Shown: one piece after another, positions 46,902 through 49,471 of the stretch
Position numbering within the stretch: position 1 is the first letter of the stretch
Layout of the letters: every line of letters starts with the position of its first letter
From: Rhizobium sp. BK376
GTDB lineage: Bacteria; Pseudomonadota; Alphaproteobacteria; Rhizobiales; Rhizobiaceae
Assembly (NCBI RefSeq): GCF_004341625.1
Contig: NZ_SLZG01000001.1
Location: forward strand, 806,001-870,000
Length of the DNA: 64,000 bases
Reading direction: 5' to 3'
Notes under the pieces: model-generated
Seen by the model: only the letters and a program-made list of their open reading frames with translations
Databases searched by the model: none
What the model was told of the DNA's origin: nothing
Translations under genes and position numbers: made by a program

Positions 46902-48452
46902 TTAAGAGGCACTGTCGTGCCGGTGCTGCACTTCGAGCAGAGGCTCCACAAGGCTTCCGGCGGCAATCATGTCAGAAATTGCGTAGATATCCTCGCTCGG
47001 TGAGCGATCGACATCGAGCGGCGGAACAGCTTCCCTGATTTTCTGAAACAGCACCCCTGCCCCGTTCCCGAGCGCGACGGGTCCGCGCAAATCGATAGCG
47101 CGGGCGGCGACAATCAGTTCTATCGCCGTCAGATAACGCAGCTTCTCGACCAGCCGCGCAGTCTTGTCGACAACCGACATGGCGAGCGAAGCATAGTCCT
47201 CCACCCGGTCGGCAACCGGCGTGACGGCGAAGGGCATGGGCAATGCAAGATGGCCGATCTCCGCCGCCAGCATCGCAATCGTCTTCTGCAGCGCGGAAAA
47301 GCCGTTCGATCCCGGTTCGGCGGGCGCGAGGAACCGCGGCAGATCGGAAAAACCCGGCGACATGAGCTTCATCATCCGCTCCGCGGCCATCGCGGCCAGC
47401 CGGGCGAGCGCGAGAGACAGCGTATCGAAGGCGAGCACCATATGGGTCGGATCGAAATTGCCCGTCGGCAAGACACGATCCTCATTGGCGATGACTGACG
47501 GATTGTCATCGCTGGAATTCAGCTCCAGCTCCGCAGCAAGCCATGCCTCTTCGAGCGCATACCAGGCTGCCCCCATGACAGAGGGTGCGCATCGCAGGCT
47601 CAGCGGATCCTGCAAGCGCCTTGCCGCCCCTGGTTTCATCAGGTCGCCGCCGTCGACGAGCGAGTGGATCGCCGCGGCCATGCGCGCTTGCCCGGGGCTG
47701 GGCCGCAGGCGGCTGGCCAGCGGATCGAGAGGATCAAGGCTCGCACGGAAGCCTTCGAAGGAAAGTGCTGTCGCGCCGATATGCGCATCGAACACCCGCC
47801 TGGCATCCTGGAGCACCAGACAGGCAAGGCCCACGGACGCGGCATTGGAGGAAATGAGCGAAAGGCCATCCTTGATGCCGAATGTCGGCCGGCTCAAGCC
47901 GGCAGCCTCCAGCGCCTCGGCGCCCGAAACGGCGGTGCCGTCGGGGAGAACCGCCCTTCCCTCGCCGATCATGACAAGCGCGATATGCGCGAGCTGCGGG
48001 AGATCCGCCTCGCCGATGGAGCCGGTCATCGGCACCTGGGGATGGACCGAGCGGTTGAGCATGTCGCGGAGCGCCCCAACGGCTGCTGCAGAGGCGCCGG
48101 AATAGCCCAGACAGAAGCGGGCGATGCGCGCCGCCATCATGGCGCGAACCTCATCCGGTTCGACAAAATGGCCGACACCGACCGCGCGAGCGCGGGGAAT
48201 ACGATACTGGCTGGGGCCGCTCGATGGAGCGACCCTGGTATCGACGGCAGCGCCAAGACCGGTGCTGACGCCATAGATCGCCTGACCGCCTTCGGCATGG
48301 CGCACCAGGCAATCATAAGCAGCGTCAATGCCAGCCAGCGCATCTTCGGCAATCATCACTTCGGCTGCGTCGCGCGCAACCTCGCAGATCATTTCGACGG
48401 TCGTGCCACCCGCCTCAAACGTAACACTCTTCCGACCGGCGTCCGCTTCCAT
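46902..48452 (-). CDS. Histidine-ammonia-lyase-fold protein lacking the MIO cofactor triad
   Basis: Protein of 516 residues, full length for the HAL/PAL family (AAGGAG upstream of ATG 48452). The fold is clear: IYGVSTGLGAAVD with Tyr60, QDPLSLRCAPSVMGA, NSSDDNPSV, LPTGNFD, RVEDYASLA. The GSxGASGDLxPLAH block that generates the MIO electrophile reads GSIGEADLPQLAH (144-156): the Ala-Ser-Gly triad is replaced and one residue shorter. Against Pseudomonas HutH (from memory), Tyr280 is Leu284, Asn195 falls in LISSNAAS, and His83 is lost in RIPRARAVGVGH. A standard lyase reaction is therefore not expected. It lies 14 bases after the ornithine-cyclodeaminase-like gene in one operon. Confidence 0.88.
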   Translation of the reverse strand: MEADAGRKSVTFEAGGTTVEMICEVARDAAEVMIAEDALAGIDAAYDCLVRHAEGGQAIYGVSTGLGAAVDTRVAPSSGPSQYRIPRARAVGVGHFVEPDEVRAMMAARIARFCLGYSGASAAAVGALRDMLNRSVHPQVPMTGSIGEADLPQLAHIALVMIGEGRAVLPDGTAVSGAEALEAAGLSRPTFGIKDGLSLISSNAASVGLACLVLQDARRVFDAHIGATALSFEGFRASLDPLDPLASRLRPSPGQARMAAAIHSLVDGGDLMKPGAARRLQDPLSLRCAPSVMGAAWYALEEAWLAAELELNSSDDNPSVIANEDRVLPTGNFDPTHMVLAFDTLSLALARLAAMAAERMMKLMSPGFSDLPRFLAPAEPGSNGFSALQKTIAMLAAEIGHLALPMPFAVTPVADRVEDYASLAMSVVDKTARLVEKLRYLTAIELIVAARAIDLRGPVALGNGAGVLFQKIREAVPPLDVDRSPSEDIYAISDMIAAGSLVEPLLEVQHRHDSAS

Positions 48453-48466
48453 ATGGCGAGCACTCC

Positions 48467-49471
48467 TTAAGCGAAGCGCAGGCGCTGGCCGATCTTCATC
48501 TGCCGCGCCTTGTCCACCATGGCGGCGCCGAGGGCGACATCGGTCGTGCTGAGGCCGCGGTGCCAGAAGAGAATGGTCTCGTCATCACTCTCGCGGCCCG
48601 GCTTCATGCCAGCCACGATCTGGCCGATCTCGGCATGCAGGTTCTCCGCGGTCACCTTGCCTTCATCGACATGGCGACGGAGTGCGCCATAGGGGCGGCC
48701 CGGCCCGCATTGGCCCCAGTCGTCGACCACGACCTTGTCCATGATATCTGTCAGGTCGAACTCAAGCGCGCTCATCGTGCCATAGGGAACGACGAAAGCG
48801 CCCTTCTTGACCCAGGCGGTCTTGAAGAGCGGCGTCGGCTCGGGAAGGCGGCTCGCCTCGACCATGATGTCGGCGTCCTTGAGGCAATCTTCCCAGTTGT
48901 CGGTGACGATAATCTTCTTGCCCAGGTCCTTTTCCAGGCGGGCGGCAAAAGCGTTCTGGCTTTCAGGCCGGCGGGAGTGAACGCGGATTTCCTCGAAATC
49001 GAAGATGTGGTCGAGCAGGCGGACATTCCAATAGGAGGTGCCGCGCGCGCCGATATGCCCGAGGATCTTGCTGTCCTTGCGGGCAAGATGCCGTGCGCCG
49101 ATGGCCGTTACTGCGCCGGTGCGCATATCGGTGATCGCGGTCGCATCCACGATCGCCTTCGGCATGCCGGTGCGTGGATCAAAAAGATTGAGCACTGCCA
49201 TTTCGGATGGCAGACCCTGCTTGTAATTGTCGACGAAGTCGCCGACGACCTTAACACCGGCATAGTCGAGCGACTTCACATAGCCGCGAAGAACGTTGAA
49301 ATGGCCTTTGTCCGAACTCTCCGGAACAAGGTGGACCCGCGGCTCGATGACCGTCTCGCCCCGCCCCTGTGCGTCGAGCGCTTTGCTGACCGCGTCGAGG
49401 ATCTCGTCGTTGGTCAGTGCCAGGGCTTTCGCGTCGATGGCGTTGAGATAGTCGATCCAGATTTCCTGCAT
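48467..49471 (-). CDS. Ornithine cyclodeaminase / mu-crystallin family protein
   Basis: NAD(P)-type enzyme of 334 residues. The Rossmann loop is LGHIGARGTSYWNVRLL (GxGxRG form), preceded by the catalytic-domain mark ATAITDMRTGAVTAIGARHL (Arg, Thr, Ala) and followed by ADIMVEASRLPEPT. The family covers ornithine cyclodeaminase, alanine, arginine and lysine-type dehydrogenases and imine reductases, so the substrate is open. It is the first gene of an operon with the MIO-less HAL-fold protein. The pairing argues that both act on one amino-acid-derived compound, which is inference. Confidence 0.88.
   Translation of the reverse strand: MQEIWIDYLNAIDAKALALTNDEILDAVSKALDAQGRGETVIEPRVHLVPESSDKGHFNVLRGYVKSLDYAGVKVVGDFVDNYKQGLPSEMAVLNLFDPRTGMPKAIVDATAITDMRTGAVTAIGARHLARKDSKILGHIGARGTSYWNVRLLDHIFDFEEIRVHSRRPESQNAFAARLEKDLGKKIIVTDNWEDCLKDADIMVEASRLPEPTPLFKTAWVKKGAFVVPYGTMSALEFDLTDIMDKVVVDDWGQCGPGRPYGALRRHVDEGKVTAENLHAEIGQIVAGMKPGRESDDETILFWHRGLSTTDVALGAAMVDKARQMKIGQRLRFA

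Follow-up and report, generated by a model that had tools for sequence, protein, structure and literature searches.

A gene pair encoding HAL-fold and OCD-family proteins

The DNA analyzed in this work, hereafter the window, is a stretch of 64,000 nucleotides from Rhizobium sp. BK376 (contig NZ_SLZG01000001.1, positions 806,001 to 870,000), located on contig C1 of a genome of 7.68 Mb. On its minus strand, a gene for a protein of the ornithine cyclodeaminase (OCD)/mu-crystallin family is followed, after a gap of 14 bp, by a gene for a protein with the fold of histidine ammonia-lyase (HAL), in which the block that forms the cofactor 4-methylideneimidazole-5-one (MIO) is altered (Table 1). In Pfam searches, the HAL-like protein matched Lyase_aromatic (PF00221; E 1.8e-128) and the OCD-like protein matched OCD_Mu_crystall (PF02423; E 1.8e-55; score of 188.6 vs. 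a gathering score of 24). At the level of NCBIfam, the HAL-fold protein remained under the cut-off of 8/8 models matched (HutH, phenylalanine ammonia-lyase (PAL), tyrosine ammonia-lyase (TAL) and aminomutases), and the OCD under that of 13/13.

Table 1. Positions of the gene pair and its associated features within the window.
Feature	Position	Strand	Remark
MIO-less HAL-fold protein, 516 aa	46902..48452	-	Predicted betaine (amine) lyase
OCD/mu-crystallin family oxidoreductase, 334 aa	48467..49471	-	First gene of the pair; subfamily with GARGT loop
MIO-forming block of HAL/PAL/TAL, codons 144-156, here GSIGEADLPQLAH	47985..48023	-	Position computed from the start of the open reading frame
Arg89 codon, at the place taken to be that of HAL His83	48186..48188	-	Position computed from the start of the open reading frame
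Imperfect inverted repeat TTGTCTATACTTATTGTCAA	49564..49583	.	Resembles an operator of the GntR (HutC/PhnF) kind; probably controls the pair

Loss of the MIO tripeptide and conservation of residues

In the alignment, the MIO block GSIGEADLPQLAH is one residue shorter than GSVGASGDLAPLAH; it reads GSIGEADL and lacks the Ala-Ser-Gly tripeptide of HutH. The reading frame contains no internal stop, and the original prediction, which had claimed an altered block in a HAL-fold protein with a clean frame and no frameshift, is borne out. The further changes that it had listed (Leu284, Ser-Ser in LISSNA and a lost His) also match the alignment: L284 stands at the place of HAL Tyr280, S201-S202-N203 at that of Asn195-Gly-Thr and R89 at that of His83, while Y60, R287 and E418 are retained. 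Throughout this comparison, Tyr280, Asn195, His83, Tyr53, Arg283 and Glu414 are what we take to be the HAL residue numbers.

The closest solved sequence was ergothionase (ergothioneine trimethylamine lyase) from Treponema denticola (PDB 6s7j; E 2e-72). An AlphaFold model of the HAL-like protein (mean predicted local distance difference test score, pLDDT, 83.5; predicted template modelling score, pTM, 0.88) was employed as a Foldseek query, and ergothionase again ranked first by E-value (1.5e-28; TM-score of 0.86).

To evaluate conservation, named genomes were scanned, which yielded 477 relatives; the best 80 were retained for the counts, which are hence biased to close relatives and comprise, by title, 20 Pseudomonas and 37 Rhizobium loci (NCBI genus names split the 37). 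Y60, R287, F333 and E418 were invariant (80/80), and D195 (80/80), N203 (79/80), L284 (78/80) and K430 (79/80) nearly so, with position 390 occupied by Lys in 60 relatives and Arg in 20. Ergothionase has the set D195, N203, L284, K/R390 and K430 as well, whereas the three canonical HutH rows used for comparison differ at these positions; part of the set is also present in other MIO-less types. Position 89 was Arg in 76 of the 80 and His in four (L130, L146, L152 and L153). Canonical Ala-Ser-Gly was found in 0/80; its place was taken by Glu-Ala-Asp (18), Glu-Ser-Asp (20), Ala-Ala-Asp (39) or other residues (3). Early ends, 4-10 residues short of the end of the aligned part, were flagged in L034, L038, L079 and L130.

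Selection, chromosomal place and phylogeny

Substitution rates were calculated by the Nei–Gojobori method (NG86) with Jukes-Cantor correction for the window vs. six close relatives. The ratio of nonsynonymous to synonymous rates (dN/dS), a rough measure here with dS near or above 1, was 0.12-0.21 for the HAL gene (dN 0.17-0.25, dS 1.06-1.43) and 0.03-0.06 for the OCD gene (dN 0.03-0.06, dS 0.81-1.01). Purifying selection, which the original prediction had proposed as a check, therefore acts on both genes, and much more strongly on the OCD gene. The OCD was far more conserved than the HAL-like protein in 16/18 same-genus loci (91-96% vs. 45-75% identity) and in the other two (73% vs. 40%). At 8/8 named Rhizobium loci of the Glu-Ala-Asp (EAD) type (L075-L082), the flanking genes DnaJ, FabI and PdxH were present, which indicates the same chromosomal place.

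No evidence was found in favour of a decaying gene or a sequencing error, and the probability of either is negligible given the 80 homologues, none with the canonical residues, the dN/dS of the HAL gene and the constant chromosomal place; frameshift, decay and sequencing error were all refuted by the homologues. The HAL-like gene is probably not broken and encodes a genuine enzyme, of a kind that is known in part.

A quick tree was calculated from 65 rows, after removal of rows more than 78% identical to a retained row and without a PAL or TAL row. A single branch separated 14 MIO rows from 51 MIO-less rows (Shimodaira–Hasegawa-like approximate likelihood-ratio test, SH-aLRT, 99). The window grouped with Rhizobium EAD-type rows (98), then with Chelativorans (92) and Aureimonas (99), and the His89 rows L146, L130 and L152 formed one clade (100) nested among Arg89 rows. 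Long branches were those of L130b, REF_L004, ERG and REF_L002, of which ERG and REF_L004 were flagged as meeting.

Linkage to the OCD gene

Counts of OCD and neighbouring genes rest on tblastn, since the gene caller used misses some genes. An OCD homologue was detected in the examined DNA of 73/80 loci, at a distance of at most 1.5 kb in 67/80; none was found in the examined DNA of L089, L130, L133, L136, L146, L152 and L153, and a contig end is ~3 kb away or less at L130, L133, L136 and L146. Among 61 genomes near that of the window, 20 encoded the OCD (E<=1e-60), and the same 20 (20/20) carried a MIO-less HAL gene within ~1.2 kb. The co-occurrence that the original prediction had suggested looking for is thus present in both samples.

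A wider set of 385 class-level genomes contained the HAL gene in 11 (E<=1e-120) and the OCD gene in 27 (E<=1e-100), with matches 61-75% identical to the window OCD. All 11 HAL genomes had the OCD. The two genes were neighbours in 4/11 (G000, G165, G411 and G415) and apart in 7/11, either on separate contigs or, in G321, at a distance of 1.6 Mb; the DNA around the OCD in G094, G147, G321 and G337 gave no HAL match. In these samples, HAL implies OCD and OCD also occurs independently; the pairing is one-sided. A two-way dependence was rejected, as 16/27 OCD-bearing genomes had no HAL match at E<=1e-120.

The lone OCD genes examined had varied neighbours. These included, with names assigned by eye, a cysteine-synthase-like gene with a NUDIX gene, a class IV aminotransferase-like gene and a desaturase-like gene, and also a urocanase 65% identical to that of Chelativorans. 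Deduction of a substrate from them was rejected, as they are too mixed. Two HAL-fold genes in tandem (L239:12142-15206), which read GMDGE at the MIO place and are ~28% identical to the queries, lie close to a lone OCD gene of this subfamily. A locus titled Mycobacterium sp. KBS0706 (L142) carries the operon in its alphaproteobacterial form, and its OCD shares 91% identity with that of the window; its title is probably wrong.

These data also bear on whether the HAL-like protein is a pseudoenzyme or a regulatory partner of the OCD, a role that the far higher conservation of the OCD would suit. We consider this very unlikely, as Y60, R287, F333 and E418 are invariant in all 80 relatives, HAL stands apart from OCD in 7/11 class-level genomes and relatives are located in catabolic gene clusters. 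The original prediction had offered either a MIO-independent reaction or an allosteric partnership; the loss of MIO and the intact gene were confirmed, and no evidence was found for the partnership.

With respect to the OCD itself, models for alanine dehydrogenase (192 vs. a cut-off of 409), EutC, SbnB, BhcD and Pyr2C reductase were matched below cut-off. Its glycine loop for nucleotide binding reads GARGT, a motif present in 84/84 rows (the window OCD and 83 related OCDs), and the protein belongs to a separate OCD/mu-crystallin subfamily by sequence. Two lone OCDs read GARGV and GARGS at the loop.

Gene neighbourhoods of relatives

The window pair is flanked by genes for a 17 kDa antigen and for PdxH-type and DnaJ proteins; thiourocanate hydratase and thiohydantoin desulfurase genes were not among its flanking genes and were shown only beside the relative L146. 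Rfam and tRNA scans of the window found nothing. On plasmid pRL12 of R. johnstonii 3841, genes for a LysR protein, a putative sulfate exporter, a CoA-transferase, a short-chain dehydrogenase/reductase (SDR), MaoC and a HutC-type repressor lie near the HAL gene (annotated hutH), and the cluster also holds genes for an OpuAC binding protein, the OCD, a PhnD-like protein, two permeases and an ATPase. The hutH or histidine ammonia-lyase label given to family members in public plasmid records is very probably wrong.

To assign families, single members were compared with Pfam or NCBIfam models. An OpuC-type (quaternary-amine) binding protein with at least 50% identity to that of Chelativorans was detected at 24/80 loci; a ProX-type one at 18/80, all Pseudomonas (tested member, PF04069); and an SsuA-type one at 17/80, the tested Pseudomonas member of which passes the aliphatic-sulfonate-binding model (399 vs. 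299). As the OpuC-type query gave only two matches in the window's own genome, a chance neighbourhood of this protein seems unlikely. By molecule name, its PDB relatives are engineered acetylcholine and nicotine sensors, EgtUC (ergothioneine), ProX, OpuCC and OsmF. The window's genome holds an unlinked set of quaternary-amine transporter genes on contig C38, where they are followed by an FMN-type monooxygenase-like gene, named by eye (L213:13502-14851).

Further neighbours were a PhnD-like protein (42/80), a CoA-transferase (16/80) and a putative sulfate exporter (13/80). The PhnD-like gene often directly follows the OCD gene; its product (L083:5197-6024 and others) shows no evident signal peptide by eye, and, within the PDB, one member is closest to AioX and ArrX. 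The cluster adjoins hut genes in Chelativorans and in genome G719, and a search of the 80 loci found a urocanase-type gene at just two of them, Chelativorans (L083) and R. setariae (L146). Against HutC models with a cut-off of 220, the regulators of R. johnstonii (279) and Hoeflea (274) passed and that of Chelativorans (216.6) just failed.

Among the loci with His89, UbiD and UbiX-like flavoprotein genes lie near the Komagataeibacter gene (L130), and class III aminotransferase, aldehyde dehydrogenase and zinc-type dehydrogenase genes near that of Mesorhizobium (L152). R. setariae L146 contains a full ergothioneine set, namely thiourocanate hydratase, thiohydantoin desulfurase, ErtD and ErtE, all above NCBIfam cut-offs. 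Most neighbours (CoA-transferase/MaoC/SDR and UbiD/UbiX-like) fit an elimination that gives an unsaturated acid.

A proposed MIO-independent betaine lyase

From the loss of MIO, the predicted fold, the conservation of residues, the linkage of the genes and the selection acting on them, we infer a reaction, a leaving group, a role for the OCD and an order of steps, and consider it fairly probable that the HAL-like protein is a MIO-independent betaine lyase of the ergothionase type that shares its pathway with an OCD-type imine/amine oxidoreductase. The substrate would be an amino-acid betaine, and MIO would not be needed because its quaternary ammonium is already a good leaving group. Conserved acid/base residues would take the beta proton, yielding an alpha,beta-unsaturated acid and a tertiary amine, and the OCD-family protein would perform an NAD(P)-linked imine/amine oxidoreductase step of the same pathway. 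In other bacteria, an OpuC-type quaternary-amine ATP-binding cassette (ABC) transporter would supply the pair. Evidence in favour comprises the rank of ergothionase among solved relatives, the residues shared with it, the branch that divides MIO from MIO-less rows, the ergothioneine genes beside L146, the betaine-type binding proteins, the neighbours suited to an unsaturated acid and the HutC-type regulators.

Several observations weigh against this proposal. P. putida HAL, although second to ergothionase by Foldseek E-value (3e-27), had the higher TM-score (0.90), and the fold alone, taken from a model, does not decide between kinship to ergothionase and to HAL. The tree places ergothionase on the MIO-less side, but with a long branch and not within the clade of OCD-linked rows. 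No transporter genes adjoin the window pair, and at 38/80 loci, including those of the window's own group, neither betaine-type binding protein was found in the examined DNA. The His89 loci L130, L146, L152 and L153 showed no OCD in the examined DNA (a contig end is close by at L130 and L146, at R. setariae L146 1.3 kb past the gene), and L160 has His89 yet an adjacent OCD, so residue 89 and OCD linkage are imperfectly correlated. Finally, a plain betaine lyase pathway offers the OCD no evident place.

In a different scheme, the lyase would eliminate a leaving group at the beta position of an amino acid, and the OCD would reduce the resulting enamine/imine to an amino acid. Model pairs for such a route are hydroxyaspartate dehydratase with BhcD and EutB with EutC. 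It would account for an imine reductase as the most constant partner, and the OCD is recognised, albeit below cut-off, by models for alanine dehydrogenase, EutC, SbnB and BhcD and retains Lys, Arg and Asp where A. fulgidus alanine dehydrogenase has them. However, betaine-type binding proteins, MaoC/CoA-transferase genes and the nested ergothioneine cluster indicate an unsaturated acid, and, to our knowledge, the group lost or shifted by characterised enzymes of the HAL fold is an amine and not another beta group. We therefore regard this scheme as quite unlikely.

As to the substrate of the proposed betaine lyase, the OCD-linked clade has Arg89 vs. His in HAL and ergothionase, and therefore a compound other than ergothioneine is probable from the sequence. 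His83 of HAL has its role at the imidazole ring. Our favoured guess, in itself a doubtful one, is ergothioneine sulfonate or a similar sulfonated betaine of histidine, the sulfonate of which Arg89 would hold. It is placed first because hints of sulfur (the SsuA-type protein, the putative sulfate exporter and Arg89) coincide with hints of histidine (HutC, the hut neighbourhood and ergothionase kinship). Mimosine, stachydrine, nicotianamine-type and phosphonate substrates were considered and not favoured for lack of evidence.

The window protein might be one more copy of a published enzyme, the trimethylamine lyase of the ergothioneine-sulfonate pathway of Agrobacterium radiobacter. PMC13405746 lists a paper with the title of that pathway among its references and cites it for A. 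radiobacter. Arg89, the HutC-type regulators, the SsuA-type protein of Pseudomonas and the sulfate exporter genes (13/80) would all suit this explanation. Nevertheless, rhizobia hold several MIO-less HAL types, so the A. radiobacter enzyme may be another one, and urocanase-type genes were found, among the 80 loci, only at L083 and L146; on balance it seems rather unlikely. No publication on the HAL-OCD gene pair was found in the open-licence literature, among the matches listed, and the operon is not named in the excerpts of PMC13405746, PMC7653990, PMC3333776, PMC6421345 and PMC11547076.

We tentatively put forward, as a possibility somewhat short of an even chance, that the Arg89 clade is an undescribed family of betaine lyases, common among Proteobacteria associated with plants and soil, which acts on a quaternary amino acid whose side chain is anionic and is coupled to an OCD subfamily that is itself new, and that the nested His89 clade represents a switch of substrate by one residue change together with an exchange of the surrounding genes. 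If these proteins are betaine lyases, they would provide root bacteria with a route to degrade plant or fungal betaines, releasing volatile amines. They would also complete a natural series, from enzymes with MIO through MIO-less ones with His89 to MIO-less ones with Arg89, for testing how the HAL fold functions without its cofactor.

A candidate operator upstream of the pair

The inverted repeat TTGTCTATACTTATTGTCAA lies 92 bp ahead of the OCD start and occurs once in the window (mean of 0.00 in shuffles). It precedes the OCD gene at 7/80 loci, all of them EAD-type Rhizobium (L075-L081, with L082 as the exception); allowing up to 2 substitutions, no further site was found across the 1.34 Mb that the 80 loci cover. 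In the window's genome, allowing 2 mismatches, one other site was detected, between phnF and phnG of the C-P lyase genes (G000 C3:13191-13210). The phnF-phnG form, TTGTCTATATCAATAGACAT, was present in 13/13 Rhizobium genomes searched, with or without the pair (its location was checked in the window's genome only). A regulator of the GntR/HutC subfamily, PhnF or a relative, may control the pair, and the likeness of the repeats suggests a possible link to the phosphonate regulon; this likeness does not tell PhnF from another GntR/HutC-type regulator.

Further MIO-less HAL-fold genes

Other MIO-less types with the block GSAGY--L or GSVGY--L were detected in rhizobia (L002/L215 on contig C16 of the window's genome, L028, L033, L031 and L032). 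The contig C16 copy is accompanied by ABC transporter genes and by one whose product has 51% identity to HutC, and L031/L032 by quaternary-amine transporter genes; the GSVGY type occurs with quaternary-amine transporter, enoyl-CoA hydratase and hydroxyacyl-CoA dehydrogenase genes. A very divergent MIO-less HAL-fold paralogue (L004; contig C3:204268-205659 of the window's genome) has the block GSIGCADIGLMG. The Komagataeibacter locus contains a HAL-fold gene (L130:5635-7377; PF00221) with a signal-like N-terminus, Glu at position 89 and an extreme tree branch, which adjoins a TonB-type receptor-like gene (by eye).

Comparison with known enzymes

Compared with HutH (TIGR01225), the window protein shares the fold and the presumed equivalents of Tyr53, Arg283 and Glu414, but has no MIO tripeptide, no Tyr280 and no His83, and its score (349.3) is below the equivalog cut-off (539.15). 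Neither the MIO of PAL, TAL and the 2,3-aminomutases nor scores above their equivalog cut-offs were found for it.

The OCD, in turn, shares PF02423 with archaeal alanine dehydrogenase from A. fulgidus (1omo) and keeps its Lys, Arg and Asp positions, but reads GARGT where 1omo reads GCGTQ. Further PDB relatives are Pyr2C reductase (6t3e) and 4m54, labelled putative ornithine cyclodeaminase.

Within the family itself, the R. setariae L146 protein belongs to the same clade and is MIO-less (GSIGAADL), with 44% identity to the window protein and 65% to an OCD-linked member from R. leguminosarum; it differs from the window protein in His89 and in its neighbours.

Ergothionase (PDB 6s7j/6s7q) is ~30% identical to the window protein and has in common with it the HAL fold, a lack of MIO, a block (SSIGEGD) that is also one residue shorter with Glu in the equal place, Leu for Tyr280, and D195, N203, K390 and K430. 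Its mechanism was reportedly described by Maurer in 2019 as a 1,2-elimination of trimethylamine, and it is said to have four essential catalytic residues. The two differ at position 89 (His in ergothionase, Arg in the window) and in their setting, as the window pair has an OCD partner and no thiourocanate-pathway neighbours. An excerpt of PMC13405746 states that ergothionase is without MIO, contrary to the original claim that all characterised HAL/PAL/TAL-type lyases need it. Because ergothionase lacks MIO and has a shortened block and Leu for Tyr, a HAL-fold lyase without MIO is a kind already known.

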